Assembly: GCA_013696965.1 (NCBI GenBank)
Contig: JACCXN010000093.1
Coordinates: 57,760 to 121,759, forward strand
From: Bacteroidota bacterium
GTDB taxonomy: Bacteria; Bacteroidota; Bacteroidia; JACCXN01
DNA length: 64,000 bases
Direction: 5' to 3'
The translations under genes were made by a program, and so were the position numbers. Every line of letters starts with the position of its first letter. The first letter of the stretch is position 1. The notes beneath the pieces were generated by a model. The model was not told the origin of the DNA and searched no databases. It saw only the letters and a program-made list of their open reading frames with translations. Of this stretch, positions 23,498 through 39,373 are shown one piece after another.

Positions 23498-24663
23498 TGA
23501 TATTACGTACAGCAGGAAAAGAAATAAAAATTTTACTAAAACAATTTCCGGTAATTGTTTTGTTGGGTCCACGCCAAGTTGGGAAAACAACGCTTGTTGC
23601 AGAACTTGTTCCCGAAATCGAAAAAGATGCGGTCTGGTTTGATTTGGAAAAACCATCTGACTATGATAAAATGAATAATGCAGAATTGGTTTTAGGGAAC
23701 TTAAGGGATAAATGTGTGATTATAGATGAAATTCAATTGCGTCCTGAATTATTTTCATTGCTTCGTCCCCTTGTGGATGCTAAAAGAGAGCCTTGCAGGT
23801 TTATTATTCTTGGTTCAGCCAAGCCTTCTATAGTAAAGGGAGTGTCTGAATCACATGCCGGCAGGGCAGCATATCATCAGTTAATGCCTTTCTCCCTGCC
23901 CGAGGTTCAAAAGAAAATATCCATGGAAAAGCATCACTTTGTTGGTGGTTTTCCTGATTCTGCTTTGGCAGGTTCTGATAATGCATCAAAAAAATGGTTG
24001 GATAATTTTATTCGTTCCTATACCGAAATAGATCTTCAGAAGCTTGGAATTGGAGCTTCCCCTGTTATGTCCAGGCGGTTATGGGAGATGCTGGCCTGGC
24101 AAAACGGTAATCTGGTTAATTATTCAGCCTTGGGAAACTCCTTGGGCATTTCATATAATACCGTTAAAGGTTATGTTGATTATTTTGAAGGTGCTTTTCT
24201 TATTTCCCGCCTTCTTCCTTTTCATAATAACATTAAAAAGCGACTGGTCAAGTCTCCAAAAATATATATTAACGATACTGGTATATTACATCGTTTGCTT
24301 AGAATTCAGGACTTTTATCAATTGCAGGGCTCACCCATGATGGGTGCATCCTGGGAAGCATATGTTCTGGCTCAGGTACGTGCATCATTGCCTTCCGATA
24401 TTGATTTGTACTTTTATCGTACACATGCTGGTGCGGAGGTTGATCTTGTATTCACCAAAGGATTAAAACCTATAGCCACTGCAGAAATCAAATATTCTCT
24501 TTCTCCTGAAATCACCAAAGGGATGTTATCGGTTATCGATGATCTCAAAACATCTGATAACTTTGTGATTATTCCTTCACAGGATGATGATTACCCGATT
24601 AAAAAAAATATTGTCGGCTGCGGATTGAGTATCTTTTTAGAAAAATACCTGCCTGAATTATGA
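23491..24663 (+). CDS. AAA ATPase with DUF4143 C-terminal domain
   Basis: Stand-alone ATPase of the AAA_14/DUF4143 type. Walker A is LLGPRQVGKTTLV near residue 24 and Walker B is CVIIDEIQLRPELF near 77. A sensor-like FIILGSAKPS lies near 105, the winged-helix-like segment ALGNSLGISYNTVKGYVDYFEGAFLI near 220, and a C-terminal GAEVDLVFTKGLKPIATAEIKYS near 312-334. That last segment resembles the D-(x)n-E-x-K core of PD-(D/E)xK nucleases. The family is common and mobile in Bacteroidota and archaea but has no settled function. It is a single gene with its own promoter inside an inverted repeat. An in-frame ATG at 23497 is an alternative start. Confidence 0.88.
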   Translation: MQMILRTAGKEIKILLKQFPVIVLLGPRQVGKTTLVAELVPEIEKDAVWFDLEKPSDYDKMNNAELVLGNLRDKCVIIDEIQLRPELFSLLRPLVDAKREPCRFIILGSAKPSIVKGVSESHAGRAAYHQLMPFSLPEVQKKISMEKHHFVGGFPDSALAGSDNASKKWLDNFIRSYTEIDLQKLGIGASPVMSRRLWEMLAWQNGNLVNYSALGNSLGISYNTVKGYVDYFEGAFLISRLLPFHNNIKKRLVKSPKIYINDTGILHRLLRIQDFYQLQGSPMMGASWEAYVLAQVRASLPSDIDLYFYRTHAGAEVDLVFTKGLKPIATAEIKYSLSPEITKGMLSVIDDLKTSDNFVIIPSQDDDYPIKKNIVGCGLSIFLEKYLPEL

Positions 24664-25048: not shown

Positions 25049-25057
25049 TACATTTGC
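25049..25057 (+). promoter_or_regulatory. Bacteroidota -7 promoter element TAcaTTTGC of the AbiE pair
   Basis: TACATTTGC matches TAnnTTTGC and lies only two bases upstream of the ATG at 25060, so the transcript would be leaderless or nearly so. No -33 TTTG is obvious. Confidence 0.55.
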
Positions 25058-25059
25058 AC

Positions 25060-25698
25060 ATGGAATTATTCAGGGAGTTGTCCAAATATACCTCTTATCC
25101 TATTGCGCATCAGGTGCTGGTGTCTTTGCTTAAAGGCTATAAAAGGCCAAATGATAAAATTCAAGACTTACTGTCTAAAAAGATATTGATTCCAATTAAA
25201 AGAGGACTTTATATCACCGGCCCTGTATTAGAAGGCCAGTCCCCGGAACCTATATTAATAGCCAATATTTTGTCGGGGCCAAGTTATGTGTCAATGACTT
25301 ATGCACTTTCACACTACGGATGGATACCTGAAAAAGTATATGAGGTTTCCTCAGTGACCATCAAAGTTTCTAAAATTTTTAAAAATGAACTGGGTATTTT
25401 CACTTATACAAAGCTACCGCTTCCCTATTATAGCTTTGGCATAACCCAATTGAAAATCAGGGATGATCAATATGCTTTAATGGCAAGTGCGGAAAAAGCA
25501 TTATGTGATACAGTTATTAATACCAAAGGGGTGAATTTGAGAAGCAAAAATGAGGCATCCCGTTTTTTGTTTGAGGATTTACGAATAGACAAGGGCATGT
25601 TAAAGGATGCAAATACAGCCGCCATTAAAAGCTGGCTGCCATATGCACCAAAGGGTAGTAGCTTAAATTTTTTACTTAAAGTAATTGAAGAATTATGA
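25060..25698 (+). CDS. AbiEi-like type IV antitoxin / transcriptional regulator
   Basis: Antitoxin half of an AbiE-type toxin-antitoxin pair. AbiEi proteins have an N-terminal winged-helix DNA-binding domain and repress their own operon. Here residues 1-50 (ELFRELSKYTSYPIAHQVLVSLLKGY...LSKKILIPIKRGLYI) have that form. Next come SGPSYVSMTYALSHYGWIPE and a later ASAEKALCDTVI, both typical of the family. It has 212 residues. An upstream TTG at 25054 would add two residues, but the ATG at 25060 fits the promoter better. Its stop overlaps the toxin gene ATG (ATGA), the normal arrangement. Confidence 0.85.
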   Translation: MELFRELSKYTSYPIAHQVLVSLLKGYKRPNDKIQDLLSKKILIPIKRGLYITGPVLEGQSPEPILIANILSGPSYVSMTYALSHYGWIPEKVYEVSSVTIKVSKIFKNELGIFTYTKLPLPYYSFGITQLKIRDDQYALMASAEKALCDTVINTKGVNLRSKNEASRFLFEDLRIDKGMLKDANTAAIKSWLPYAPKGSSLNFLLKVIEEL

Positions 25699-26549
25699 TT
25701 AAAGAGTGGATAGAGAGTTATCAACCTAAAAATAAAACGCAAGCACAGCAGGCACTTCGGGAAATAATGCAGGAAATAGCCTTAGCAGGATTATACAGAG
25801 CTGGTTTTTTTGAAAAAGCAGCTTTTTATGGTGGCACAGCACTGAGAATATTTTATGGATTGCCAAGATATTCGGAAGATTTAGATTTTTCATTGTTAAA
25901 AAGCAATCCTGATTTTTCATTTGATAATTATGTAGATGCTATGTTAATGGAATTTGAAGCCCTTGGAATGAAAGTATCGATGAAGAGTAAAGAGAAGAGT
26001 GCTGCCAGCTCCATAGAATCGGCCTTTCTAAAGTCAGAAACCTTATGGAAAGAATTAATTCTTACCCAAATGCCTATTATCAAAGGGGAAGAGCAAATAA
26101 TCAGACTTAAAATAAAATTAGAAATAGACACACATCCACCATTGGGATTTAATACAGAAGAAAAATTATTGTTAAAACCATTCTCCTGTTATGTTAAATG
26201 TTTTACGCTTCCTGATTTATTTGCCGGAAAAATGCATGCTTTGCTCTATAGAAAATGGAAAAACCGGGTAAAAGGAAGAGATTGGTATGATTTGGAATGG
26301 TATATCAGGCATGCAATACCCTTGAATTCTTCCCATTTTATGATCAGAGCTGTTCAAAGTGGTGATTGGAAGGCTGCTGAACTCATAAGCAATGAAAAAG
26401 TAATACAATTATTATCCAATAAAATAAAGCAAGTTTCATTCAGCCAAATAAAGGAGGATATCATCCGGTTTATTCCTGACCCAAAAGTGCTGGATATTTG
26501 GTCGGAAAATTATTTTCTTGACTTAATAAAACATTTAAAGGTGGAATAA
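25695..26549 (+). CDS. AbiEii-like nucleotidyltransferase toxin
   Basis: Toxin of the AbiE system, a member of the nucleotidyltransferase superfamily that blocks growth and aborts phage infection. Motif FYGGTALRIFYGLPRYSEDLDFSL near residues 48-68 contains the GG-T-x-R and D-x-D elements of the catalytic site. A later conserved AGKMHALLYRKWKNRVKGRDWYDLEWYI near 180-205 is the K...R.KDxyDl motif III/IV of AbiEii, where the second Asp region is RDWYDL. Its length of 284 is normal. It is coupled to the antitoxin by a four-base overlap. AbiEii relatives are reported to modify tRNA, but the target of this one is unknown. Confidence 0.87.
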   Translation: MIKEWIESYQPKNKTQAQQALREIMQEIALAGLYRAGFFEKAAFYGGTALRIFYGLPRYSEDLDFSLLKSNPDFSFDNYVDAMLMEFEALGMKVSMKSKEKSAASSIESAFLKSETLWKELILTQMPIIKGEEQIIRLKIKLEIDTHPPLGFNTEEKLLLKPFSCYVKCFTLPDLFAGKMHALLYRKWKNRVKGRDWYDLEWYIRHAIPLNSSHFMIRAVQSGDWKAAELISNEKVIQLLSNKIKQVSFSQIKEDIIRFIPDPKVLDIWSENYFLDLIKHLKVE

Positions 26550-26883: not shown

Positions 26884-27573
26884 GTGGAAAACATAAATTT
26901 TAATTCTTTTATCAGTGATAATTTTGCAGGATTCTCCCCTAGGGACCTTCCCAATTTTATTTTCAGTTTTATTGTTAGCGCCTTGCTGGCTTTTATCCTG
27001 AGTAAAGTATATATCAAATACGGCAATGCCCTGTCAAACAGAAAGGCATTTGCAAGGAATTTTGTTGTTCTAGCCATTGCCACAATGTTTATTATATCTG
27101 TGGTAAAATCATCTCTTGCCTTATCTCTTGGTTTGGTTGGAGCCCTTTCTATAGTTAGATTCCGCTCTGCTATTAAGGAACCAGAGGAGTTAACTTACTT
27201 GTTTTTAACAATTGCAATTGGACTTGGTTGTGGAGCAGGTTTAACCCTGTTAACAACAATTGCATTTATTGGATTTGTGTTTTTTATCTGGTTAAACAGC
27301 CGAACTCAAAAAGCCCTTGAAAGTAAGAATCTTTACCTTACCCTTTCAGCAAGCCAACCTGATCTTTTTGATTTGAAACAAGTTGTAGAGGTTTTAAAAA
27401 AATATTGTACAGCCGTAAAGCTAAAGCGGACCGATGAAACCCAAAACGAAATGGAAGCCTCATTTATGGTTGAAGTGGAAGATTTTAATCAGTTGCAACT
27501 TGCCAAAGAAGGAATTAAGAGTTTGAACAAATCTATAGCAATTACTTTCATGGATAACAGCAGAGATTTTTAA
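26884..27573 (+). CDS. DUF4956 membrane protein
   Basis: A 229-residue protein with an N-terminal membrane half and a C-terminal soluble half. Hydrophobic segments lie near residues 22-45, 58-75, 80-100 and 108-140. The conserved block SLALSLGLVGALSIVRFRSAIKEPEELTYLFLTIAIGLGCGAG is the DUF4956 signature (Gl.gal.iiRfRt.i..p.d..yif...ig...g). The C-terminal part reads like a small alpha/beta domain. Function is unknown; the family is regularly found next to VTC-domain and CotH genes, as here. The start is a GTG (26884); no in-frame ATG precedes the conserved region. Confidence 0.85.
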   Translation: MENINFNSFISDNFAGFSPRDLPNFIFSFIVSALLAFILSKVYIKYGNALSNRKAFARNFVVLAIATMFIISVVKSSLALSLGLVGALSIVRFRSAIKEPEELTYLFLTIAIGLGCGAGLTLLTTIAFIGFVFFIWLNSRTQKALESKNLYLTLSASQPDLFDLKQVVEVLKKYCTAVKLKRTDETQNEMEASFMVEVEDFNQLQLAKEGIKSLNKSIAITFMDNSRDF

Positions 27574-27578
27574 TTGTT

Positions 27579-28286
27579 TTGATAAACCCATTCCAAAATA
27601 GAACAAATTCTTTTGAAGAATTTCGCTATGAAAGGAAATTCCTTGTTTCCCAATTCCATAAAACTCAGGTAGAACAGCATTTGAAAATGCATCCATCAGG
27701 TTTTAAAAAATTATTTCAGGAAAGAATAGTAAATAACATTTATTTCGATACCCCAGGTTTAATGCATTATTACGATAATGTTGAGGGTGAAAAACACAGG
27801 CTGAAAGTTAGAATCAGGTGGTATGGTGATACTTTTGGCCCTATCTCAAAACCTGTTCTTGAATATAAAATTAAAAAAGGTCTTTTAGGGAAAAAGGCTT
27901 CGTTTAAATTAAATCCCTTTACCCTGGATAAAAATTTCAATAAAACGGTTATTGCAAAGGCCATTGAGAATACTCAAATTCCCAATGCCCTAAAAGATGA
28001 ATTATTGTCTTTGCAGCCTACACTTCTGAACAGGTATAACCGTAAATATTTTTTGTCTGACGATAAAAAAATAAGGGTAACTATCGACAGCAACCTTACT
28101 TTTTACCGAATAAGTTATTTTCACAATACTTTTTTAAATAAATCAAACGATCGTGAAACCCTTGTTTTAGAGATGAAATATGATCCTGAAATGGATAATT
28201 TAGCAAGAAATATATCAACTTTTTTCCCGTTTCCTTTAACTAAAAGTTCAAAATACTTGCAAGGTTTAGAACGAATTTCCCTTTAA
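27579..28286 (+). CDS. VTC-domain (triphosphate tunnel fold) protein
   Basis: Relative of the polyphosphate polymerase domain of the yeast VTC complex. The beta-tunnel signature is visible: FRYERKFLV at the N-terminus (ExExK-type), NIYFDTPGLMHYYDN near residue 50, RLKVRIRWYGD near 72 and VLEYKIKKGLLGKKASFKL near 90. RVTIDSNLTFYR near 160 and a final ETLVLEMKYDPE complete the set of alternating charged strands. Family members may make or cleave polyphosphate or another nucleotide-derived polymer. The gene starts with TTG five bases after the DUF4956 stop; no ATG is available upstream. The pairing with DUF4956 and CotH is recurrent, so the three probably act together. Confidence 0.87.
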   Translation: MINPFQNRTNSFEEFRYERKFLVSQFHKTQVEQHLKMHPSGFKKLFQERIVNNIYFDTPGLMHYYDNVEGEKHRLKVRIRWYGDTFGPISKPVLEYKIKKGLLGKKASFKLNPFTLDKNFNKTVIAKAIENTQIPNALKDELLSLQPTLLNRYNRKYFLSDDKKIRVTIDSNLTFYRISYFHNTFLNKSNDRETLVLEMKYDPEMDNLARNISTFFPFPLTKSSKYLQGLERISL

Positions 28287-28315
28287 AGTATAATTTTTAT
28301 GAATTTCAATAAAGT

Positions 28316-30058
28316 ATGAAACCTGTTTTACAGTCAGAAAAAAAACTCCCTGTTTCTGTTAAATCAGGCTTTATTTTGTCCTTTCTTGCATTAATTTTAA
28401 CAGCAATTATAGGTATTGAAATTGCAGGGGATAAAAAAAAAAACAACCTGCCATTTATTTATTCAAAAAGTGTTATTCCACCTGTTTTTTTAGATTCCGG
28501 TGGGTTTTATGACAAAGAATTTCACCTTGTATTAAAACCTGGTTCATCCAATTCAAAGGTATATTATACAACTGATGGAACTGTACCAGGTAGAAAAGCA
28601 CAAATTTATTCCTCTCCTATCCCTATTAAAATCAGTGCAGACAATGCCAATGGGATTTCAGAAATTCCAACTTCTCCTCGATGGAAACCTCCTTTGAATA
28701 AAGTTTTTAAAGGAACAATTGTTAGGGCAATTTCAGTTACCGAAAATGGAAGTGTAAGTAAGGAAGTAGTAAATACTTATTTTGTGCATTCAAAGGGAAG
28801 AGATAGATATTCCTTGCCAGTTGTATCTCTGGTAATTGATCAGGATGATTTTTTTGGATATAATAAAGGAATTTACGTTATGGGTAAAGGTTATGAGGAC
28901 AAGGACAATTATGCAAAAAAAAATATAAAATTAAATGCAAACTGGTGGGATTACCCCGCCAACTATAAACGAAAGGGTGAAAATTGGGAGCGTCCTATCC
29001 ATATTACATTCTTCGAAAGGGAGAGCAATAAAGGATTTTCATCAAATTCAGGTGTAAGAATAAATGGAAGTGCTACCAGGGCTTACAGTCAAAAATCTTT
29101 AAGGATTTATTTTAATGAAAAATATGGACAGGAATCATTAAACTATAAACTGTTTCCTGAAAACCCAATTGAAGATTTTAACCAGCTTATATTGCGAAAT
29201 TCAGGAAATGATTGGGATAGAACAATGTTTCGTGATGCTCTAATGCATTCACTTTTAAAAAACACCAATCTGGATCTTCAGGATTACCTGCCTTCAATTG
29301 TTTTTTTGAATGGAGAATTTTGGGGCATCCATAATATCAGAGAGCGTTTTAGCAAGGATTATTTTTGTAATAAGTATAATTTTGCCAAGGAATTCGTACA
29401 AATAATTGATCTGAAAGATGGAGTACAAATCAGGGAATCGGGATTTGGTGAATTAATAAGCTTTGTTAAGAATAATGATTTATCAGTAAAAGAGAATTAT
29501 GAGCATTTAAATACATTAATGGATTTAGAAAATTTTACGGATTATCTTATTGCCAATATTTATTTTGCTAATACAGATTGGCCTAATAACAATGCAAGAT
29601 GTTGGAAAAAATTAACCTTAACACCTCAACCAGATGCGCCTTTGGGTCAGGATGGAAGATGGAGATGGATATTTTTTGATACCGATTATGGTTTTGGATT
29701 TACTGGGAATCCCAATGCATACACTGTGAATATGTTGAATAAACTTTCTCCTGATAACAACCTGGGATTGATGTTTAATGCTTTAATAAAAAATCAAGGA
29801 TTTAAGGAAAAATTTATTAATCGATTCAATTATCATTTAGAAAATACTTTTATTCCTGATAAGGTTTTAGAAAAAATAAATCAGATGGAAGCAGTTTTGA
29901 AACCTGAGATGCAAGAACATATTCAAAGGTGGAGAAAACCAACATCGATGAAACAGTGGATACAAAATGTTCAGGTATTGAAAGAGTTTGCAATTAACCG
30001 ACCCAATTTCCAAAAAGAGCAGCTTGAGGATTTTTTAAAAGAGAATAACAAAAAGTAA
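28316..30058 (+). CDS. CotH kinase family protein with chitobiase-like N-terminal domain
   Basis: A 580-residue exported protein. Residues 19-41 form a signal anchor (LSFLALILTAIIGIEIA). Residues 60-150 resemble the CHB_HEX_C type domain (YYTTDGTVPGRKAQIYSSPI... TIVRAISVTENG...). The CotH region follows: SGVRINGSATRAYSQKSLRIYF, LILRNSGNDWDRTMFRDALMHSLL, YLPSIVFLNGEFWGIHNIRERF and WIFFDTDYGFGF. CotH of Bacillus is a secretory-pathway protein kinase. This is a Gram-negative relative probably acting in the periplasm or outside. It lies 29 bases after the VTC gene, in the standard DUF4956-VTC-CotH order. Confidence 0.87.
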   Translation: MKPVLQSEKKLPVSVKSGFILSFLALILTAIIGIEIAGDKKKNNLPFIYSKSVIPPVFLDSGGFYDKEFHLVLKPGSSNSKVYYTTDGTVPGRKAQIYSSPIPIKISADNANGISEIPTSPRWKPPLNKVFKGTIVRAISVTENGSVSKEVVNTYFVHSKGRDRYSLPVVSLVIDQDDFFGYNKGIYVMGKGYEDKDNYAKKNIKLNANWWDYPANYKRKGENWERPIHITFFERESNKGFSSNSGVRINGSATRAYSQKSLRIYFNEKYGQESLNYKLFPENPIEDFNQLILRNSGNDWDRTMFRDALMHSLLKNTNLDLQDYLPSIVFLNGEFWGIHNIRERFSKDYFCNKYNFAKEFVQIIDLKDGVQIRESGFGELISFVKNNDLSVKENYEHLNTLMDLENFTDYLIANIYFANTDWPNNNARCWKKLTLTPQPDAPLGQDGRWRWIFFDTDYGFGFTGNPNAYTVNMLNKLSPDNNLGLMFNALIKNQGFKEKFINRFNYHLENTFIPDKVLEKINQMEAVLKPEMQEHIQRWRKPTSMKQWIQNVQVLKEFAINRPNFQKEQLEDFLKENNKK

Positions 30059-30085
30059 AAAAGCAACAAGTAATAAAAGAAAACA

Positions 30086-31441
30086 GTGATTCTGGCCCTA
30101 AAAGACAATTTCCAGTTTATTATCATTCTGCTATCTTGGCTGATAGTTGGAATATATGGAGGGCCTGTTGCCTATGTGTATATTCCACTTACAGTTTTGC
30201 TATTAAAAATGAAGGGACTGTACGAAGAAATGTTCCTTGGTTTTTGGTTTTTGCTTATTTTGTCTGATAGTCTTGAACCTTCAATGAAGTTTGCCCAAAA
30301 CACAAAAAATATTTATATTGTTTTACTAGCAGGGTTGTTTTTCTTAAATCAAAAAGATTTTAGGCCTATAAACCACTTATTTCAAAAGTTTTCACCCTTT
30401 TTTTTAATTGCTGTTATTGCCCTGGCATATAGTGAAACCTTCCTTATTAGTTTGCAAAAAACTATTTCCTACTTTTTAATTTTCATGATTGCTCCCAATT
30501 ATATGATTAAAATATACCACGATAATGGAAATAGTTTTTTAAAGAAGTTAGTTTATTTTATCACTGCTATTTTAATTGTTGGTCTTATTCTTAAAGTTTT
30601 AATGCCTGAAATTGCTGCTTCACATGGCGGAAGGTTCAGAGGAATTTTTGGAAACCCCAATGGACTGGCTATTTTTTGTATTTTAAGTTTCCTGCTAACC
30701 TATTTAATTAATCATTTCCGCCCACTTTTATTTTCCAGGAATGAGAAAATTTTTATTTTTTCAGTTGTATTATTGTCACTAATATTAACAGGTTCGCGCA
30801 GTGCAGCAGTTGCTTTGGCTATTTTCCTGGGATTTGCAAGATTTTTTAAAATATCACCCTTTTTTGGTTTTATGGTTTTGATTATTGCCATTGTCCTTTA
30901 TGAATTAATAGGAGCCAATTATGTGGCTATTATACGTTACCTGGGATTAGAATCTTTTTTTAGACTTGAAACTCTGGAAAAAGGTGGAGGAAGATATATT
31001 GCCTGGGCCTTTGCCTGGGAACAAATTCAACACAATTTTTTCCTTGGTAAAGGAATTGCTTTTGATGAATATTTTATGCGTAAAAATTATAATTTACTAA
31101 GTAGGTTGGGCCATGAAGGCGGAGTACACAACAGTTACCTAATCCTTTGGCTTAACACAGGGATCATTGGATTGATGTTATTTTTACGTTCTTTTTTTCT
31201 ATCCTTTTCTCGAGCAAATAAAACTACGAAGCTTGCCTATCCAATAATGTTTGCCATTATGTTCACCATTAATTTTGAACCCTGGATAGTATCTTCTTTA
31301 AATCCTTTTACCATTATTTTTTTAATGATTATTACACTTATGTCTGATAAGGTTTTCCATGAAAAAGAGCAGGAAAATGTAGAAAAATTGGTAGAGAATG
31401 AGTTGTTGGAAGATAAAGAGATTTTGCTAGTGGATAAATAA
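30086..31441 (+). CDS. O-antigen ligase/polymerase-like membrane protein
   Basis: A polytopic membrane protein with about 10-12 hydrophobic segments. The large exposed loop near residues 280-350 holds RYIAWAFAWEQIQHNFFLGKGIAFDEYF and GHEGGVHNSYLILWLNTGIIGLMLF. The H-N-S-Y-L...G-I-x-G pattern and the earlier FRGIFGNPNGLAIF and LTGSRSAAVAL are the landmarks of the Wzy_C/O-antigen ligase family. It would polymerise or ligate undecaprenyl-linked sugars on the periplasmic side. The start is a GTG at 30086, 27 bases after the CotH gene. The C-terminal tail is acidic and cytoplasmic. Confidence 0.87.
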   Translation: MILALKDNFQFIIILLSWLIVGIYGGPVAYVYIPLTVLLLKMKGLYEEMFLGFWFLLILSDSLEPSMKFAQNTKNIYIVLLAGLFFLNQKDFRPINHLFQKFSPFFLIAVIALAYSETFLISLQKTISYFLIFMIAPNYMIKIYHDNGNSFLKKLVYFITAILIVGLILKVLMPEIAASHGGRFRGIFGNPNGLAIFCILSFLLTYLINHFRPLLFSRNEKIFIFSVVLLSLILTGSRSAAVALAIFLGFARFFKISPFFGFMVLIIAIVLYELIGANYVAIIRYLGLESFFRLETLEKGGGRYIAWAFAWEQIQHNFFLGKGIAFDEYFMRKNYNLLSRLGHEGGVHNSYLILWLNTGIIGLMLFLRSFFLSFSRANKTTKLAYPIMFAIMFTINFEPWIVSSLNPFTIIFLMIITLMSDKVFHEKEQENVEKLVENELLEDKEILLVDK

Positions 31442-31471
31442 GATAATTTTTAAAATAATAAATTACAAACC

Positions 31472-32401
31472 CTGAAAAGAACAATTCAAATATCGTTTCT
31501 TCTTATTTTTATTCTACTTACGGCAGAACTTGTAGCCCGTTTTTGGCTTGGATTAGGTGAGCTGCCTGTATATATTGAGGATAAGGATTTTGAATACATT
31601 TATGCTCCCAATCAAAGTGTAAAGCGATTTGGAAATTCTATTAGTACCAATGAGTTTTCCATGCGTAGCAAACCATTATCTCAAAAGGATGAAATAAGAA
31701 TACTGAAAATCGGAGATTCAATAATTAATGGAGGTTCCCAAACAGATCAGGACAGTTTAGCCTCAAGTATTCTTGAAGAACAATTATCAAAAAAGTTTAA
31801 AAAGAACATAAGAGTTCTCAACGTAGGCGCAAATAGTTGGGGACCAGATAATGCATTTGAGTACATTAAGAAAAATGGGCATTTTAATTCATCCTTAATA
31901 GTTCTTGTTTTTAGCAGTCATGATTATTACGACCATATGCATTTTCAAAAAGTGGTGGGAGTGCATCCTGCCTGGCCTTCTAAGAAACCTTTTATGGCAA
32001 TTACAGATGGCTTTTTTAAATATTTTATTCCTTGGTTCAATAACAAAATAAGTAGGAATTACAATGCTTACAGTTATTTGTCTTCACACAATAACATCGA
32101 ATACATGAACAAGGGATGGAAAGCATTGTTTAATTATGTAAATGACAATCAAATTGAAATGCTTGTTTACCTTCATCCAAGCAAACAAGAAATTATCAAT
32201 GGTAAATATGAAGATAGCGGATTAAAGCTTCTGGAAGTTTTCAGCCAAAACAAAATTAAATTCCTTTCTGGTATTGAATACAATGCAGATTCTTCCCTTT
32301 ACCGTGATTTTATTCATCTTAATAATAAAGGTCAAAAAGCACTTGCTAATGTGCTTTTTACTCCGTTACAGGCTCATGTTAAAGCCAATTTAAAGGATTG
32401 A
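31472..32401 (+). CDS. SGNH/GDSL hydrolase with N-terminal membrane anchor, apparently non-ATG start
   Basis: Likely an esterase or acyl-modifying enzyme of the SGNH superfamily. Block I is KIGDSIINGGS, block II NVGANSWGPDN, block III LVFSSHDYYDH and block V DFIHLNNKGQ, with the catalytic D-x-x-H. The first canonical ATG in frame is at 31661, but the frame is open upstream to 31454. It encodes KRTIQISFLLIFILLTAELVARFWLG (written here only as far as the hydrophobic anchor), then YIYAPNQSVKRFGNSISTNE, an N-terminal region usual for these proteins. The best upstream candidate is CTG at 31472; no ATG, GTG or TTG exists there. The cluster context (O-antigen polymerase, CotH, beta-helix) fits acyl decoration of an extracellular polymer. 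Confidence 0.72.
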   Translation: MKRTIQISFLLIFILLTAELVARFWLGLGELPVYIEDKDFEYIYAPNQSVKRFGNSISTNEFSMRSKPLSQKDEIRILKIGDSIINGGSQTDQDSLASSILEEQLSKKFKKNIRVLNVGANSWGPDNAFEYIKKNGHFNSSLIVLVFSSHDYYDHMHFQKVVGVHPAWPSKKPFMAITDGFFKYFIPWFNNKISRNYNAYSYLSSHNNIEYMNKGWKALFNYVNDNQIEMLVYLHPSKQEIINGKYEDSGLKLLEVFSQNKIKFLSGIEYNADSSLYRDFIHLNNKGQKALANVLFTPLQAHVKANLKD

Positions 32402-32416
32402 AGTAAAGAATAATAC

Positions 32417-32424
32417 TACTTTTG
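32417..32424 (+). promoter_or_regulatory. Promoter-like TActTTTG
   Basis: TACTTTTG in the 100-base gap before the beta-helix protein gene fits TAnnTTTG. A TTG at 32398-32400 is 16 bases upstream, slightly short for a -33 element. Weak candidate for a second promoter within the cluster. Confidence 0.35.
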
Positions 32425-32501
32425 AGGACAAATTTGTTAAAACAAGTTTAAAAATAAAAACAAAGAATAATTCTTAGCGTTATATAACGAGTTTTTAAAA
32501 G

Positions 32502-35090
32502 ATGCAGATTAAGAAAAATAATAAAGAACAAAGGAGTAGTTTATTTAATATTAAACCTTTTCTCATCTGGGCTTCTTTAGCTGTTTTTATAATTTTAACC
32601 GCTTACTGTATAATTTTTGCATCTAAATTTATCAAAACAAAAGGCTATACCGGGTTGTATGATTTTATTTCCACAGCATCTTCAAATTATTTATTCAGCC
32701 TTGATGCAAAAATTGAAAAAGTAGAAATACAATTTGAACCTTCTGATTTTAATACTATCAAAGAGAAAAGGCAATTAGCATTGAACAGAAATTTAATAAT
32801 AAATGAACCAGATAGTTATGTTCCTGCCATTATCCTTCATAAGGGTAAAAAAATAAGGATTAAAATCAGGCTCAAAGGCCACATGACAGACCATGTTGAT
32901 GGTGAAAAATGGTCATACAGGGTAAAAGTTAAAGATAACGATCATTTTATGGGAATGAGAACATTCTCTTTGCAACATCCAGGCACACGGCAATATGTCT
33001 ATGAATGGGTATATCATAAAATGTTAAAGGCAGAACATTTAATTGCTTTAAGGTATAAATTCATAAATATAGTTCTAAATGGAAAAGATTTAGGGATATA
33101 TGCTGTTGAAGAGCATTTTGATGATGAACTTATTGCGGATAATAATAATTTAATAGGACCTGTTTTTAGATTTAATCCCAATTTATATTGGGTAGATCGA
33201 TACAATGAGATTTTAAAAGACAAGGTAATAGCTGAATTCAGTTCCTTTTCATCTTCCAATTTTGAAATTTACAGAGAAAAAAAGACCCTTTCAGACCCCG
33301 TTCAATTTCAATATTTTTTAAAAGGAATGGCATTGATTGAAGCATTCAGAAGGGGTGAACTTCCTGCAGATAGTGTGTTTGATATAAAAAAACAAGCTAA
33401 GTTCTATGCTGTAATGGATTTAATGGGGGGACATTTTAGTATGGATTGGAGCGATGTGAAATTCTATTATAACCCCATTACATCAAGGTTGGAACCTGTA
33501 GGATATGAAAGCTGCAGCCTTTACCCTACAAAAAAAATAGCAGGCAGTGCCAGGTATAAACCACTTGAAAAAGGTGCCTTTATTAATGATTTCCATAATA
33601 ACCTGTTTAGTAATCCTGCCTTCTTTAAAGAATATATTAAGCAGCTAGAAATCGTAGCAGAAAAAGAGTATTTAGATAATTTTTTCGCCAGTATTGATAA
33701 GGATTTGAATCAAAATCTAAAAATAATATACAGTGAGTTTGCTTATAAAAAGTTTGATAAGGAGCTTTATTACAAAAATCAAAAAAGCATTAAACGAATT
33801 CTAGATACACCTAAAGGATTCCATGCTTTTTTTGATGGCAAAGCAAACGATTCTCTTTTAATCCAATTAGGTGTTATAGAATCATTGCCTATTGAAATTT
33901 TGGGGATTATGTTAAATGATTCGGTTATTTCAAAACCTTTAAATGAACTTATACTTTCTGCTAAATTACCTGAGGAGTACGTAAATTACAAAGGATTTTC
34001 CTTTGTTTTGCCACAAGACTTAATATGGAAAAATAAATTTGCAAAAAAACTTAGTGTAAAATACCGAATTCTTGGTGCAAGTACTGAAAAATCTGCTGAA
34101 GTTTTTCCATACCCCTATAAAGATAAAAATTGGCTGAAGGAGGATTTGCTTAATCAGGTCTCTAATATGGAAGAATTTACTTTTTTAACAGTAAATAAGG
34201 AGCAAAAAGTGGTTTTTATAAGACCTGGAAAATGGCAGATAAATAAAAACATGATTATTCCCCAAGATTATATAGTTAAAGCCTCTGAAAATACTGTTAT
34301 TGATTTAATCAACAATGCTAGAATTGTTTCATATTCTGCTCTTGATTTTTCTGGAAATGAAAAAGAACCAATTGTAATATTTTCTTCTGATTTAACAGGT
34401 CAGGGAATTGTCGTATTAAATGCTTCACTAACATCAAATTTAAAACATGTTCATTTTAAGGAACTTAATAGCTCAAAAGACAATGAATTAAAACTCTCCG
34501 GTGCTGTTACTTTTTATGAATCTGAAGTTAATATTACAAATTGTTATTTTACAAGTGGCAATAATGAGGATATTCTCACTATTATTCGTTCTTCTTTTAG
34601 AGTTAATAAATGCCTTTTTGAGAATTTAGTTAATGATGCCTTGGATATAAAATTTAGTAATGGTAGTGTATCCAGCAGTTCCTTTGTTAATTGCATTGAA
34701 GATGCTATTGATATCACCGCAAGTAATGTGCTGTTAAAGAATATTACTATTAACAAAGCGGGAAATAAAGGACTCAATGCAAAGGCACATTCAGAAGTTA
34801 AAGGAGAAAACATTAAAATATTTAATTCCAACATTGCGGTTTCTGCCGAAGATTTTGCAAATATTATTCTTGATAATGTGACCATAAAAGATAGTAAAAT
34901 TGCTTTTGTATCTTTTCAGAATAAGCCAGAGTTTGGTCCCGCATTTATTACTGCAACAAATGTAGTTCTAGAGAACAACGTAAAGAAAAGCCTTGTTGAA
35001 TCAAAATCAAAAATTAGCATAAATGGCGTTTCTTTATCTGAGACAATAAAGAATGTTGAAGCATTACTTAAACAGGATATAAATGAATAA
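32502..35090 (+). CDS. CotH-like protein with C-terminal right-handed beta-helix
   Basis: A large (862 residue) exported protein with a signal anchor near residues 23-46. Residues 65-350 resemble CotH: IRIKIRLKGHMTDHVDG, MRTFSLQHPGTRQYVYEWVYHKML, FINIVLNGKDLGIYAVEEHFDDELI and MDLMGGHFSMDWSDVKFYYNP. Residues 600-840 show parallel beta-helix rungs such as VTFYESEVNITNCYF, FRVNKCLFENLVNDALDI, GSVSSSSFVNCIEDAIDI and VLLKNITINKAGNKGLNA, as in polysaccharide lyases and carbohydrate-binding proteins. A CotH module joined to a beta-helix is not an arrangement I recognise. The end overlaps the metallophosphoesterase gene by 8 bases, so they are coupled. Confidence 0.78.
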   Translation: MQIKKNNKEQRSSLFNIKPFLIWASLAVFIILTAYCIIFASKFIKTKGYTGLYDFISTASSNYLFSLDAKIEKVEIQFEPSDFNTIKEKRQLALNRNLIINEPDSYVPAIILHKGKKIRIKIRLKGHMTDHVDGEKWSYRVKVKDNDHFMGMRTFSLQHPGTRQYVYEWVYHKMLKAEHLIALRYKFINIVLNGKDLGIYAVEEHFDDELIADNNNLIGPVFRFNPNLYWVDRYNEILKDKVIAEFSSFSSSNFEIYREKKTLSDPVQFQYFLKGMALIEAFRRGELPADSVFDIKKQAKFYAVMDLMGGHFSMDWSDVKFYYNPITSRLEPVGYESCSLYPTKKIAGSARYKPLEKGAFINDFHNNLFSNPAFFKEYIKQLEIVAEKEYLDNFFASIDKDLNQNLKIIYSEFAYKKFDKELYYKNQKSIKRILDTPKGFHAFFDGKANDSLLIQLGVIESLPIEILGIMLNDSVISKPLNELILSAKLPEEYVNYKGFSFVLPQDLIWKNKFAKKLSVKYRILGASTEKSAEVFPYPYKDKNWLKEDLLNQVSNMEEFTFLTVNKEQKVVFIRPGKWQINKNMIIPQDYIVKASENTVIDLINNARIVSYSALDFSGNEKEPIVIFSSDLTGQGIVVLNASLTSNLKHVHFKELNSSKDNELKLSGAVTFYESEVNITNCYFTSGNNEDILTIIRSSFRVNKCLFENLVNDALDIKFSNGSVSSSSFVNCIEDAIDITASNVLLKNITINKAGNKGLNAKAHSEVKGENIKIFNSNIAVSAEDFANIILDNVTIKDSKIAFVSFQNKPEFGPAFITATNVVLENNVKKSLVESKSKISINGVSLSETIKNVEALLKQDINE

Positions 35091-36156
35091 AAAAGTTGCT
35101 TTATATCTGTTTTGTTTTTTATTCAGCATAGATACAATAGCTATCAATCAGCCTGTAGAATCTCCTTTTAACAATAAAGTTTTAAAAAAGGATTCTTTGA
35201 ACAGCAGTTTTTCCTTCATTGTTACGGGTCATTTGCACGGAGCATCTTCCAATATTTCAGGTTTTCCTGCGGCTTCTTTACTAGCTAATATTGATACTAT
35301 TAATAGTTTAAATGCCGATTTTATAATTTCCCTGGGTGATTTGTTTTTGGATGTTAATGATAATTATGTTGCAAATTATAAGAGGAGCTTATTTGATAAA
35401 TTGAATATGCCTTTGTTTAATGCTGTTGGTAACCATGACTTATCGGGTAATCGATATGAAAGTTATTTTGGAAAAACTTTTTTTTCATTCGTTTACAATG
35501 AAAATCTTTTTATTTTTTTAGATACCGAAATCAATGATGGAAGTATAAAAGGAGAGCAAATGGAATTTTTTAAAAATGCCATTTCTCAAGCTCAAAAAAA
35601 CAATGCGATTAAGAATATTTTCATCGCATCACATCGGCCTGTATGGTCTGAAAACAACTCCCGTTACAATACTTTTTTTAAAGGAAATACTCAAACTCAA
35701 TTTGGATTAAATAATTTCAAAACTGAAGTTTCATCTTATTTGAATGAGCTTTCAACGAAATCAATTTTTTGGTTTTCTGGTTCTATGGCTTCAGGACCTG
35801 TTTCTTTTTTCTACGATAAACAAAAAGATTCTAACATTTCGTTTATTATTACCGCAATTCGAGACTTAAAACGAGATGCCATACTTCTTGTTAGTGTAAA
35901 TACGGATAAAGCAGTTGAGTTTAATACAATTTCCCTTACAGGTGAACCATTACATAATTTACAAACCTATGATATTGAATTCTGGAATAGAAATTCAAAA
36001 AATATGGAAATGGATTTCAACTACAGGCTAATACCATATCTTACTTTACAAATGATTAAACATTACCATTTTTGGATTGGTTTAGCTTTTGGAATATTAA
36101 TCATGAGCTTATTTGTTTTTATTAAAAGACGATTTTTTTTTAAAAATAAATTTTGA
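35083..36156 (+). CDS. Atypical metallophosphoesterase-fold protein with signal peptide and C-terminal TM
   Basis: Calcineurin-like fold suggested by the motif order. DFIISLGDLFLD near residue 85 is the GDxxxD motif, FNAVGNHDLSG near 116 the GNHD motif and IFIASHRPVW near 180 the H motif. The first metal motif, normally D-x-H, reads VTGHLHG. The terminal GHxH motif is replaced by WFSGSMASGP. Two or more metal ligands therefore differ from the norm. Residues 1-22 form a signal peptide and residues about 328-350 a transmembrane helix, so the domain would face the periplasm. It is coupled to both neighbours by overlaps (8 and 4 bases). It could be a variant phosphodiesterase or a non-catalytic relative. 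Confidence 0.7.
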   Translation: MNKKVALYLFCFLFSIDTIAINQPVESPFNNKVLKKDSLNSSFSFIVTGHLHGASSNISGFPAASLLANIDTINSLNADFIISLGDLFLDVNDNYVANYKRSLFDKLNMPLFNAVGNHDLSGNRYESYFGKTFFSFVYNENLFIFLDTEINDGSIKGEQMEFFKNAISQAQKNNAIKNIFIASHRPVWSENNSRYNTFFKGNTQTQFGLNNFKTEVSSYLNELSTKSIFWFSGSMASGPVSFFYDKQKDSNISFIITAIRDLKRDAILLVSVNTDKAVEFNTISLTGEPLHNLQTYDIEFWNRNSKNMEMDFNYRLIPYLTLQMIKHYHFWIGLAFGILIMSLFVFIKRRFFFKNKF

Positions 36157-37235
36157 AAAAGACAAAAACAATTCTTTTCCTTTATTCTGAGCTTGCTGCC
36201 TACTTTCTTTCTTGCATTAAAGTGTTAGCAAATGAAGAAAAATATTTAATTCACATAATACACTGGCCTCTAAATGAGCAAGCCCCTTTTGAATTCGATT
36301 TTCCAAAACAAGTAAAATTTTATCCTAAAAAAAAATTTTCTAAAACTGAATTACTAAAAATTGCATCCAATTTAAATCCTGATCTTATATTTTGCAGCGG
36401 ATGGATAGACAAAGATTATCTTAAAATTTGCAAAGAATTCAGAAGGAAAATCCCGGTAATTGTTGGTTTTGATAATCAATGGATAGGGACAACAAAACAA
36501 TGGCTGGCAGTTGCATCAAGAGCATTTACCATAGCTCCCTATTTTTCACATGCCTGGGTTCCCGGAGAAATTCAAGCAGAATTTGCTTTAAAACTTGGTT
36601 TTACTAACAATAGAATTTTGAGAGGCTTTTACGCTGCAGACTTTGATTTCTTTCATGCACTATATCTAAAAAACAAAGAACAAAAAGAAAAAGAATTTCC
36701 CAAACGCTTCATTTACGTAGGCCGCTACATAGAGCACAAAGGCATAAAAGACCTTTGGCAGGCATTTATAGAACTGCAAAATGAAAAGCCCAGCGACTGG
36801 GAGCTTTGGTGTTTGGGAGTTGGCCCATTAAAAGAACAGGAAGTCACGCATCCCAAAATAAAACATTTTGGTTTTGTACAGCCATCAGAAATGAAAAAAA
36901 TCATTGCAGATTCCGGTGTTTTTGTGCTTCCCAGCCATTTTGAGCCCTGGGGAGTTGTAGTGCATGAGTTTGCCGCAGCCGGTTTTCCTTTAATATGCAG
37001 CGATAAAGTGGGGGCAAATTCTGCCTTTTTGAAGCAGGGCGAGAACGGTTTTATATATCATTCAGCAGATGTGGAGGCATTGAAAAACGCACTGAAAAAA
37101 ATGACAGCACAATCCAAAGAACAATTGCTTGAAATGGGGGAGAAGAGTATAGAAAAAGCAAAGTTAATTACCCCCGAAAAATGGGCACAGACCATTACAG
37201 GAGTTTTGTCTCGGCCAGAAAAAGGCATTAGCTGA
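36153..37235 (+). CDS. Glycosyltransferase family 4-like
   Basis: GT-B protein of 360 residues that closes the second cluster. The C-terminal donor domain is clear: RFIYVGRYIEHKGIKDLWQAFIEL, WELWCLGVGPLKEQE, KHFGFVQPSEMKKIIADSGVFVLPSHFEPWGVVVHEFAAAGFPLICS and an E-x7-E-like FEPWGVVVHE. The N-domain begins KTILFLYSELAAYFLSCIKVL. The start is a TTG at 36153 overlapping the previous stop (TTGA); no ATG is available. Unusually for this cluster the C-terminal half is richer in G+C than its neighbours. Confidence 0.85.
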   Translation: MKKTKTILFLYSELAAYFLSCIKVLANEEKYLIHIIHWPLNEQAPFEFDFPKQVKFYPKKKFSKTELLKIASNLNPDLIFCSGWIDKDYLKICKEFRRKIPVIVGFDNQWIGTTKQWLAVASRAFTIAPYFSHAWVPGEIQAEFALKLGFTNNRILRGFYAADFDFFHALYLKNKEQKEKEFPKRFIYVGRYIEHKGIKDLWQAFIELQNEKPSDWELWCLGVGPLKEQEVTHPKIKHFGFVQPSEMKKIIADSGVFVLPSHFEPWGVVVHEFAAAGFPLICSDKVGANSAFLKQGENGFIYHSADVEALKNALKKMTAQSKEQLLEMGEKSIEKAKLITPEKWAQTITGVLSRPEKGIS

Positions 37236-37340: not shown

Positions 37341-37976
37341 CCTAACATAAAAAGATTATATAAACCCAACTATATTATATAAAATGTTTGCATTAACATT
37401 ATTACTATGTTACATGAAACGTTTGTGTTTGCCCTCACTATGTTACATAAAATGTTTGTATTTGCCATCACTATGATGCATTAAATGTTTTTATTTACCT
37501 TCACTATGTCACGTTGAATGTTGAATGTTAATATTTGCCCTAACTATGATACATGAAGTGTTTATATTTGGCCTTTCTTTGTTACCTATAGGTTTATATT
37601 TGGCCTTACTATGATACATAAAATGTTTGAATTTACCTTCACCACGTTACATGAAATGTTAATATTTGCCCTTACTATGATACATGAAGTGTTTATATTT
37701 ACCCTAACTATGTTACATAAAATGTATATATTTGCCCTTGCTTTGTTTCATATATGTTTATATTTGGCTTTACTATGGTACATAAAGGTTTACATTGCCC
37801 TCACTATGTTACATTAAATGCTTGTATTTACCCACACTATGATACAACAAGTATTTATATTTACCCTCACTATGATACATAAAGTATTTATATTTACCTT
37901 CACTTTGCCCATTTGTTTTTTTATTTGGCCTTACAATATGATACAAATTAGTTTTATTTAACCAAGGCTTCCACTA
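37341..37976. repeat. Degenerate 33-bp tandem repeat array, about 19 units
   Basis: Consecutive units of 31-35 bases (one of 40) begin TGATACAT or TGTTACAT, continue AAA-ATGTTTATATTT and end GCCCTCACTA. By eye I count about 19 units, the outer ones most degenerate. Since 33 is a multiple of three, one frame stays open for 68 codons (37611-37817) with an 11-residue period. That frame has no recognisable start signal and is broken by indels elsewhere, so I read this as a non-coding minisatellite. The repeats are directly adjacent, so it is not a CRISPR. Confidence 0.85.
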
Positions 37977-38014: not shown

Positions 38015-39373
38015 ATGATAACAAGGGATATAATTTCTACAATGATAAAATGGGCTGCAAAGCCCTCACGGAAACCATTAGTAATTAGGGGAGCCAGGCA
38101 AGTTGGCAAAACTACCCTGGTTGCTCAGTTTTCTCATCAATTTGATCAGTACATATATTTAAACCTGGAATTACCTGATGACAGCCAGGCTTTTTTGGAT
38201 TTTAAAAACATGGATACGCTTATACAATCCATATTTTTTATAAAAAATAAAGTTCATTCCAAAAAGAAAAAAACACTGATTTTCATTGATGAAATACAGG
38301 AGGTTCCCAAAGCACTAAACCTGCTGCGTTATTTTTATGAACAGGCTCCCGAATTATATGTAATTGCTGCAGGTTCATTGTTGGAGACGCTTTTCAGCCA
38401 AAATGTGAGTTTTCCTGTCGGACGCCTGGAATTCCTGGTGGTAAGGCCGGTGTCTTTTTCTGAATTTCTTGCTGCAACTGGTGAACATGCTGCATTGCAG
38501 GCAATGAGGAATATACCTTTACCGGAATTTGCCAATGAAAAACTTTTTGCCCTTTTTAATATTTACACTTTAATTGGAGGAATGCCCGAAATCGTTGATC
38601 ATTATGCAACACATAAGGATTTAACTTCACTGAAACCAATTTATGAATCACTTATAGTTTCATATATTGATGATGTGGAAAAATATGCAGCCAATGCCAC
38701 TCAGGTGCAGCTTTTTCGCCACGTCATTAAAGCCTCATTTGCTGAAGCCGGCAAAAGAATTAAATTCCAGGGTTTCGGAAAATCAAACTACAGGTCCAGA
38801 GAAATGGGAGAAGTTTTAAGGAATTTGCAAAAAGCGTTTCTACTTTACCTTGTTTATCCCACTACCGGTGCAGAACTTCCATTGCAACCGGATTCTCGCA
38901 AATCCCCCAGGTTGCAGGTTTTAGACACAGGAATGCTCAATTATTTCCTGGGAATCCAAAAAGAACTGCTTTGGGCCACTGATTTAAACAAAGTTTACCA
39001 GGGAACTGTTATTGAACATATCGTTGGCCAGGAACTTTTGGCCATAGATCACAGCGTATTAAACCAGCTTAATTTTTGGATACGTGAGAAAAAAGAATCT
39101 TCTGCTGAGGTGGATTACCTTTATTTATTTGAAGGAAAAGTAATACCTGTGGAAGTTAAATCAGGTTCTGCAGGTAAGTTAAGGTCGTTGCATTTATTTA
39201 TGGACCTGGCCCCACATAACATGGCCATTCGCTTTTATGCCGGAGAAATCTCCATAACCGAGGTGAATACCCTGGCAGGTAAAAAATATTTTCTGTTAAA
39301 CCTTCCTTACTTTTTGGTTTCTCAAATTGAATATTATTTAACATGGTTCAAAAATAAGATCAATGAAAAATAA
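38015..39373 (+). CDS. AAA ATPase with DUF4143 C-terminal domain (second copy)
   Basis: Paralogous type to the ATPase at 23491 but a distant relative. Walker A is VIRGARQVGKTTLV near residue 24. Walker B is TLIFIDEIQEVPKAL near 87, followed by YVIAAGSLLE (sensor) and FPVGRLEFLVVRPVSFSEFL, the typical family core. The DUF4143 part includes QVLDTGMLNYFLGI near 308 and the nuclease-like ESSAEVDYLYLFEGKVIPVEVKSG near 370-393. At 452 residues it is longer than the first copy. It sits alone behind the 33-bp repeat array. Function is unknown; such genes are often strain-variable. Confidence 0.88.
   Translation: MITRDIISTMIKWAAKPSRKPLVIRGARQVGKTTLVAQFSHQFDQYIYLNLELPDDSQAFLDFKNMDTLIQSIFFIKNKVHSKKKKTLIFIDEIQEVPKALNLLRYFYEQAPELYVIAAGSLLETLFSQNVSFPVGRLEFLVVRPVSFSEFLAATGEHAALQAMRNIPLPEFANEKLFALFNIYTLIGGMPEIVDHYATHKDLTSLKPIYESLIVSYIDDVEKYAANATQVQLFRHVIKASFAEAGKRIKFQGFGKSNYRSREMGEVLRNLQKAFLLYLVYPTTGAELPLQPDSRKSPRLQVLDTGMLNYFLGIQKELLWATDLNKVYQGTVIEHIVGQELLAIDHSVLNQLNFWIREKKESSAEVDYLYLFEGKVIPVEVKSGSAGKLRSLHLFMDLAPHNMAIRFYAGEISITEVNTLAGKKYFLLNLPYFLVSQIEYYLTWFKNKINEK

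Follow-up and report, generated by a model that had tools for sequence, protein, structure and literature searches.

A DUF4956, VTC, CotH/beta-helix and phosphoesterase cassette that travels across several phyla and probably phosphorylates a cell-surface sugar polymer

Related systems and the eight-gene run

The closest described relatives of the locus studied here are the cotH-PPP-DUF4956 accessory genes of Gram-positive pelDEADAFG loci (PMC7112168), represented in Streptococcus intermedius by SIR_1592-1594 (PMC12345266). In this species, deletion of the DUF4956 gene (SIR_1592) or of the CotH gene (SIR_1594) changed the level of Pel and reduced aggregation, and no effect was reported for the mutant of the VTC gene (SIR_1593) (PMC12345266). 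The same 2025 paper did not find synteny of the trio outside Pel loci and reported it only in those of Streptococcus (PMC12345266). In eukaryotes, the VTC complex couples polyphosphate synthesis to membrane translocation (PMC9911596).

We analysed a run of eight nearly abutting ORFs at positions 26884-37235, all on the + strand, within a window comprising the whole 64,000-nucleotide stretch of a Bacteroidota genome. The features are as follows.

26884..27573, + strand: DUF4956 protein (Pfam E 2e-18)
27579..28286, + strand: VTC-type triphosphate-tunnel protein (Pfam E 3e-31)
28316..30058, + strand: CotH1 (Pfam CotH E 2e-51, plus chitobiase-C/Fn3_assoc)
30086..31441, + strand: Wzy_C O-antigen polymerase/ligase family protein (Pfam E 5e-15)
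31472..32401, + strand: SGNH/GDSL-like hydrolase (Pfam GDSL E 0.008, under the Pfam cut-off; GDS and DxxH blocks seen)
32502..35090, + strand: CotH2bh, a CotH domain (Pfam E 2e-7) followed by a beta-helix
35083..36156, + strand: calcineurin-like phosphoesterase (Pfam Metallophos E 6e-7)
36153..37235, + strand: GT4 glycosyltransferase (Pfam E 3e-24)

An earlier note on this DNA had described eight same-strand genes with these domains, and the open reading frames and Pfam matches agree with that description. None of the eight proteins reaches the cut-off of any NCBIfam family, and tRNAs are the only RNA families detected in the window. Non-ATG starts (GTG/TTG) are frequent within the run. The SGNH hydrolase frame extends without interruption 5' of its first ATG (31661); the most likely start is a CTG near 31472, which would add an N-terminal signal-anchor.

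Like the Pel accessory genes, this locus places adjacent members of the DUF4956, VTC and CotH families in an operon beside a polysaccharide system, and its DUF4956 protein combines a transmembrane (TM) part with an ACT domain. Unlike them, it lacks Pel genes and contains an atypical phosphoesterase, a second CotH protein with an attached AlgG-like beta-helix and, in Bacteroidota, Wzy and GT4 proteins. We propose, with a probability of roughly 0.38, that DUF4956, VTC, CotH2bh and the phosphoesterase form an envelope phospho-modification cassette that is coupled in Bacteroidota to a Wzy-type polysaccharide locus.

A four-gene core across phyla

Gene neighbourhoods were counted starting from the phosphoesterase, retaining only loci with enough flanking sequence (34 in Bacteroidota, 19 in other phyla). 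CotH2bh lies beside the phosphoesterase in 34/34 Bacteroidota loci and in all 19 loci of Chloroflexota, Planctomycetota, Gammaproteobacteria, Gemmatimonadota and others; in contrast, none of ten weak phosphoesterase hits, which served as a built-in control, had any of the partners. On these counts we rejected a chance arrangement of unrelated envelope genes, the probability of which is negligible.

The earlier note had extended the module beyond the trio to the genes past 30058. This was borne out, as DUF4956, VTC, CotH, Wzy, CotH/beta-helix, phosphoesterase and GT4 genes occur in this order in ten other Bacteroidota loci, with SGNH alone variable. The conserved unit is larger than the DUF4956-VTC-CotH trio, as proposed, yet its deepest layer is not this trio but a DUF4956-CotH/beta-helix-VTC-phosphoesterase core. 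The SGNH hydrolase, which had been included in the unit, is hardly conserved and was discarded as a core member: it was found in 2/34 loci, and two further relatives (2/34) have a longer SGNH protein and an MBOAT protein instead.

Outside Bacteroidota the unit is the bare four-gene cassette, which recurs with altered gene orders in several phyla, an observation that we counted in favour of phospho-modification. Halioglobus japonicus (locus L119) is a cultured, non-pathogenic carrier of the cassette. Wzy_C was present in 33/34 Bacteroidota loci and in 0/19 loci elsewhere, and a GT4 ortholog directly follows the phosphoesterase in 14 Bacteroidota loci. To the deep core, Bacteroidota have added CotH1, Wzy, GT4 and SGNH. 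PelG is absent from 15 cassette genomes, including the one studied here. Our results show that the DUF4956-VTC-CotH association is general, spanning at least five phyla and including genomes without PelG.

The surface-polymer setting suggested earlier also holds. The Wzy_C polymerase with glycosyltransferases that characterizes Wzx/Wzy-dependent loci is found here, and none of the eight genes encodes a Wzx flippase or export protein. On the polysaccharide side, Bacteroidota loci carry CotH1, Wzy and GT4; relatives add genes for O-acylation (MBOAT/SGNH), amidation (an asparagine-synthase-type amidotransferase) and an epimerase.

The VTC protein and its membrane partner

The VTC protein is cytosolic, lacks TM segments and consists of a bare TTM domain that exceeds the Pfam cut-off (109 bits vs 23). 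R78, R80, E198, S224, K225 and other tunnel residues are conserved in 100% of 30 homologues. A profile match and alignment to the Vtc4 structure 3g3q revealed that this set includes the equivalents of the Vtc4 tunnel residues R264 and R266 and of its metal-ligand Glu, E426, whose role has been described (PMC9911596). With its catalytic residues kept, the protein is predicted from sequence to be a polyphosphate polymerase, and the complete conservation of the tunnel was counted for the phospho-modification model.

DUF4956 is a polytopic inner-membrane protein, MgtC-like in plan (AlphaFold2 pLDDT 86). An alignment of 22 homologues revealed a conserved basic motif, ALSIVRFRxAIKEPEEL, at residues ~87-103 (with R92, R94 and K98), and the model and Foldseek place a ferredoxin/ACT-like cytosolic domain at the C terminus (residues ~146-228). 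The Foldseek matches of this domain are ACT/ferredoxin folds, including the C-terminal domain of MgtC (2lqj); the fold search was informative for the C-terminal domain only, as the TM part was barely covered. The protein scores below the Pfam MgtC cut-off (14.8 bits vs 31.4), and the agreement with MgtC is one of domain plan (TM plus ACT-like) only.

Among 148 genomes of the same class, VTC and DUF4956 genes are adjacent and co-directional for 70/75 VTC genes, which also supports phospho-modification. The pair resembles the eukaryotic VTC complex (PMC9911596) in its VTC/TTM catalytic residues and in associating a cytosolic (here predicted) polymerase with a membrane protein that has invariant basic residues. 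It differs in that the TTM domain is bare, that DUF4956 (TM plus ACT-like), rather than a Vtc1-type TM domain, serves as membrane partner, and that its polymerase activity is predicted. Other DUF4956 genes adjoin genes for HlyD-like adaptors or for outer-membrane barrels of the DUF2490/KdgM-like type, as would suit a transport partner.

Many Flavobacteriales keep CotH2bh and the phosphoesterase without a local VTC gene. VTC was therefore rejected as an obligatory member of the operon; most genomes of this group have a VTC gene elsewhere. These loci count against the phospho-modification model. The state of DUF4956 follows that of VTC: among Bacteroidota loci with sufficient flank, all 22 of 22 without VTC had a degenerate basic motif and no C-terminal domain in DUF4956, compared to 0/12 with VTC, and an unlinked VTC gene was found in 20 of the 22 genomes tested that have a VTC-less locus, an enrichment for which kinship may account. 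We counted this correlated pattern in favour of the model.

Stand-alone VTC-DUF4956 pairs in many genomes, together with the MgtC-type plan of DUF4956 (PMC12345266), would also fit a pair with a general role in phosphate or Mg homeostasis that now lies beside surface genes and shares their regulation without a common pathway. Against this very unlikely explanation, DUF4956 and VTC of the cassette form a divergent, cassette-specific subtype, pairwise identities within it are correlated with the identities among CotH2bh proteins (rho 0.85-0.89), and the cassette recurs in different orders in several phyla.

CotH proteins, phosphoesterase and a possible route to a phosphorylated glycan

CotH1 is anchored by one N-terminal TM segment, bears its chitobiase-C/Fn3-assoc domain on the N-terminal side and scores 176 bits against a Pfam CotH cut-off of 23.8. 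D421, N426, D455 and D457 are invariant (100% in 40 homologues), and D421 is the proposed equivalent of the catalytic Asp of Bacillus subtilis CotH, D228, with D455 a candidate counterpart of its metal-binding Asp, D251. CotH2bh passes the same cut-off with 31 bits and consists of an N-terminal TM segment, a CotH kinase-fold domain (nt ~32706-33806) and a C-terminal right-handed beta-helix (nt ~34140-35054). Sequence-profile searches against the PDB, run with CotH1 and CotH2bh, recovered no CotH structures; these were found by fold comparison of the CotH2bh AlphaFold2 model (pLDDT 88). The model shares the kinase fold and CotH Pfam family of the Bacillus spore-coat kinases (5JDA/5JD9), aligning to 5jda with Z 26.9 (316 aligned, 3.2 A). 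The best matches of its beta-helix were AlgG (4ozy, Z 27.2, 275 aligned, 2.6 A) and mannuronan epimerases, all polysaccharide-processing enzymes.

The resemblance extends to the periplasmic alginate machinery (AlgG epimerase, AlgI MBOAT, AlgX/AlgJ SGNH), given the AlgG-like beta-helix and the two relatives with MBOAT and SGNH in the operon; here, however, the beta-helix shares one protein with a CotH domain and polymerisation would involve a Wzy-type protein. The CotH kinase fold joined to an AlgG-like beta-helix, in the context of Wzy, MBOAT, Asn_synthase and epimerase genes, supports phospho-modification.

Unlike the Bacillus kinases, CotH2bh has a beta-helix and, at the positions of CotH1 D421/N426/D455, reads D/D/E in Bacteroidota, where D315 and E336 align with D421 and D455, and x/N/D in others. 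The D421 position is A, V, R or I in most non-Bacteroidota homologues, which counts against the model, and judged by this residue CotH2bh may be something other than a conventional kinase. It could instead be a glycan-modifying or scaffold protein with an active AlgG-like beta-helix and a CotH pseudokinase, VTC and DUF4956 making extracellular polyphosphate as a separate matrix component. The loss of the catalytic Asp position and the epimerase-type beta-helix matches agree with this. However, K125, N193, E203, E204 and E331 of the kinase-fold part are near-invariant in 67 homologues, positions 318 (D/N) and 336 (E/D) retain metal-ligand residue types, and locus L037 encodes a 543-aa CotH2bh without the beta-helix, in which the kinase-fold part is kept alongside the remaining cassette. 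We regard this alternative as unlikely.

The phosphoesterase is predicted to be secreted and held by a C-terminal TM anchor. It passes the Pfam cut-off yet lacks the canonical motif set (D-x-H, GD, GNHD/E, H, GHxH): the Asp of motif I is replaced by His (GHxH) in all homologues and the GHxH of motif V is absent, whereas GD, GNHD, H184 and D265 are invariant (100% in 63 homologues). Judged by these motifs it is non-canonical; its profile matched purple acid phosphatases weakly.

The CotH proteins could also phosphorylate proteins, with cell-surface polymerase or export components as targets, and so regulate polymer output, while VTC and DUF4956 tune phosphate supply and the polymer stays unphosphorylated. 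Spore CotH is a protein Ser/Thr kinase (PMC7821199), such control has been put forward for Pel loci (PMC7112168), and the amount of Pel was altered in the DUF4956 and CotH mutants (PMC12345266). This is somewhat unlikely, as the beta-helix attached to the kinase is closest, among solved structures, to enzymes that process polysaccharides, and the cassette also occurs with no polymerase nearby. The unrelated genes beside stand-alone cassettes, which do not point to an acceptor, count against the phospho-modification model. The S. intermedius DUF4956 and CotH phenotypes were also counted for the phospho-modification model, and the VTC mutant without reported effect against it.

From gene content, conservation, predicted folds and topology, residue conservation and the correlated loss of VTC and the DUF4956 motif, we infer for the phospho-modification cassette VTC activity, DUF4956 transport, phosphate transfer by CotH2bh, and a glycan rather than a protein as acceptor; the earlier note, too, had put forward the phosphate role of VTC on this footing. 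VTC, bound to DUF4956 on the cytosolic side, would make polyphosphate from NTP, and the basic motif of DUF4956 would bind or pass it. At the outer face of the inner membrane, the AlgG-like beta-helix of CotH2bh would hold the glycan for phosphorylation by the kinase-fold domain; in Bacteroidota, CotH1 would work alongside CotH2bh. The anchored phosphoesterase would trim or release phosphate. Fam20B and POMK, glycan kinases of the animal secretory pathway (PMC5865150, PMC5142810), offer a functional analogy only, as kinase-fold enzymes that phosphorylate glycans outside the cytosol. A bolder version, which we consider decidedly unlikely as it stands, has the exported polyphosphate itself power the reaction, CotH-type enzymes drawing their phosphoryl groups from it in a compartment that has no ATP. 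If true, this would explain why CotH, VTC and DUF4956 meet repeatedly in unrelated polymer loci.

Until now the trio had experimental links to polymer level and aggregation from a single Streptococcus, without a mechanism, and was said to be absent outside Pel loci. The present analysis names two further core partners, the CotH/beta-helix protein and the atypical phosphoesterase, and points out isolates that carry the minimal four-gene form. The cassette makes testable both the role of bacterial VTC proteins and the source of phosphate for kinases that act outside the cytosol.

The eight-gene run and its conservation in Bacteroidota

Contig C93, which contains the window, belongs to a 3.86 Mb Bacteroidota assembly. 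Gene calls and reading of the sequence placed the eight genes described by the earlier note on one strand, with gaps near zero between them, in the following context:

26884-37235, + strand: DUF4956, VTC, CotH1, Wzy, SGNH, CotH2bh (a second CotH fused to a beta-helix), phosphoesterase and GT4 genes
23491-24663 and 38015-39373: AAA_14/DUF4143 ATPase genes flanking the module on both sides
25054-26549: AbiEii-type toxin gene and probable AbiEi partner
37402-37904: AT-rich array with about 15 imperfect copies of a 33-bp unit in tandem, immediately 3' of the GT4 gene

With the ATPase and AbiEii/AbiEi genes, the surroundings look mobile. The 33-bp unit, searched with as many as 3 mismatches allowed, had no match elsewhere in the assembly. 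Pfam searches bore out the domains named for the eight products (DUF4956, VTC, CotH, Wzy_C, a weak GDSL/SGNH, a second CotH, Metallophos and GT4) and added a chitobiase-C/Fn3-assoc domain at the N-terminus of CotH1, while none of the eight proteins reached an NCBIfam cut-off. The SGNH reading frame stays open 5' of its first ATG, and its start is probably a CTG near 31472.

In genomes of the same class, CotH2bh orthologues lie within a few kilobases of divergent DUF4956 orthologues. Furthermore, the order DUF4956-VTC-CotH1-Wzy-CotH2bh-phosphoesterase-GT4 is present in three genomes from another family, two of which carry a longer SGNH gene and an MBOAT gene inserted between Wzy and CotH2bh. 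Querying a single genome from each species with the phosphoesterase alignment and annotating the flanks of the hits revealed this seven-gene order (SGNH not counted) in ten loci (L054, L055, L056, L057, L060, L062, L063, L066, L067 and L068), three of them contigs of the three other-family genomes. The genes after position 30058, apart from the variable SGNH, are therefore conserved beside the DUF4956-VTC-CotH trio.

A four-gene cassette beyond Bacteroidota

We counted loci with a phosphoesterase score of at least 100 bits and, in Bacteroidota, at least 7.5 kb of upstream sequence (n = 34). CotH2bh and CotH1 were each found in 34/34 Bacteroidota loci and Wzy in 33/34; 12 loci carried full DUF4956 and VTC, and in the other 22 VTC was missing and DUF4956 was reduced to a short remnant. 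Nineteen further loci were labelled Chloroflexota (8), Gammaproteobacteria (5), Planctomycetota (2), Gemmatimonadota (1), unclassified bacterium (1) and Nanohaloarchaeota (2, MAG contigs that may be misbinned). All 19 had CotH2bh, 18 had VTC and 17 had DUF4956, both DUF4956 gaps falling at contig ends, and none had CotH1, Wzy or GT4 in the flanks. As an internal control, cassette partners lay beside none of ten weak phosphoesterase hits. Because the search started from the phosphoesterase, these counts describe phosphoesterase-bearing loci and are silent on partners without it.

Since the four genes are kept outside Bacteroidota, where CotH1, Wzy and GT4 are absent and neighbouring genes are unrelated, the deep unit is DUF4956-CotH2bh-VTC-phosphoesterase. 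The larger module proposed by the earlier note is thus real and conserved beyond the trio, and that view was right in part: the polysaccharide genes are an extension in Bacteroidota.

Halieaceae (Gammaproteobacteria) cassettes (L111, L118, L119, L123) have a conserved extra gene between VTC and phosphoesterase, encoding 183-185 aa with a signal-peptide-like start; one such protein gave no Pfam match.

Linkage and co-loss of VTC and DUF4956

Of 75 VTC genes in 148 same-class genomes, 70 had a co-directional DUF4956 gene no more than 1.5 kb away. The pairs are of two kinds, the divergent cassette kind and a common kind with VTC first and DUF4956 at E about 1e-50; at least 31 of the latter adjoin a DUF2490 outer-membrane barrel gene. 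The window's own genome holds two more common-kind pairs, at L050 7802-9342 (contig C91) and L051 9551-11024 (contig C35), the C35 pair being followed by a DUF2490 (KdgM-porin-like) gene, an association recurrent in the class. Iron-responsive DUF4956-DUF2490 genes are known in Bacteroides thetaiotaomicron (PMC10434189). The control genomes of Corynebacterium glutamicum and Methanosarcina acetivorans each contained matches to VTC, DUF4956 and CotH.

In VTC-less Bacteroidota loci the DUF4956 remnant lacks the C-terminal domain, and the IVRFRxAIK motif was gone from 5/5 sequences read out. Short DUF4956 occurred in 22/22 loci without VTC versus 0/12 with it (Fisher p 2e-9, kinship uncorrected). 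VTC was encoded elsewhere in 20 of the 22 genomes with VTC-less loci, compared with VTC in 68/148 class relatives (p 5e-5, kinship uncorrected). These observations are as expected if VTC and DUF4956 function together and their joint product can also be provided in trans.

DUF4956 genes without VTC at L040 9475-12421 and L046 7215-10310 adjoin genes for HlyD-like adaptors, which would suit a transport role for DUF4956; that at L046 also adjoins a gene whose 1756-aa product matches CotH weakly. In G058, a genome negative in the VTC search, the CotH2bh gene (L143 9827-12172) is split into four frames by decay or assembly error.

Cassette proteins and a possible glycan phosphorylation system

Fold and topology of the cassette proteins were predicted, and conservation and co-loss computed. 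VTC has no predicted TM segment, and all 30 homologues compared share its tunnel residues, including those aligned with R264, R266 and E426, whose replacement inactivates Vtc4 (PMC9911596). DUF4956 has an invariant motif around LSIxRFRxxIKxP, and its AlphaFold2 model combines TM helices with a C-terminal ferredoxin/ACT-like domain. It scores under the Pfam MgtC cut-off, yet shares the MgtC domain plan, as likewise remarked for SIR_1592 (PMC12345266).

CotH2bh has a single predicted TM segment, N-terminal. In its AlphaFold2 model, residues 69-435 resemble Bacillus cereus CotH (5jda; Z 26.9, 316 aligned, 3.2 A). For residues 547-851 the best match is periplasmic AlgG (4ozy; Z 27.2, 275 aligned, 2.6 A), and other beta-helix proteins that process polysaccharides come next. 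CotH1 D421, N426, D455 and D457 are invariant; a gapped profile alignment places CotH2bh D315, D318 and E336 on or beside the first three, the exact register being our interpretation. These positions read D/D/E in 47/47 Bacteroidota and mostly x/N/D elsewhere, the first not being Asp. In the phosphoesterase, which has a predicted C-terminal TM segment, H50, GD, GNHD, H184, G233 and D265 are invariant across 63 homologues; motif I has His instead of the usual Asp, and motif V GHxH is absent from the alignment. On contig C38 of the window's genome, 12646-23265 (L136-L138, L140) encodes four consecutive CotH proteins of about 1000 aa each.

The best reading is that the cassette makes a phosphoryl donor in the cytosol and phosphorylates a glycan beyond the inner membrane; we infer its enzymatic steps, transport and acceptor. 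VTC, bound to DUF4956 on the cytosolic side, would make a phosphoryl polymer or donor for use at the outer face of the inner membrane, where CotH2bh would hold a glycan in its beta-helix and phosphorylate it, and the phosphoesterase would edit the product. The presumed acceptor in Bacteroidota is the Wzy polymer, which in relatives may also be acylated (MBOAT, SGNH) and amidated (Asn_synthase). Two points chiefly weaken this glycan-phosphorylation reading: most CotH2bh proteins outside Bacteroidota lack the catalytic Asp, and no phenotype was reported for a VTC mutant in Streptococcus.

The trio was noticed beside Gram-positive Pel loci, where regulation by phosphorylation was guessed (PMC7112168). 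Deleting the DUF4956 gene of S. intermedius raised Pel and deleting cotH lowered it; both mutants aggregated less, the VTC gene had no reported effect, and the authors found no trio synteny beyond Pel loci (PMC12345266). In contrast to the Pel-locus trio, the genes occur here in genomes without detectable PelG, as a PelG search was empty in 15/15 genomes carrying trio or cassette. The cassette is a form of a known, unexplained gene association, whose core is now sharper and whose predictions are testable.
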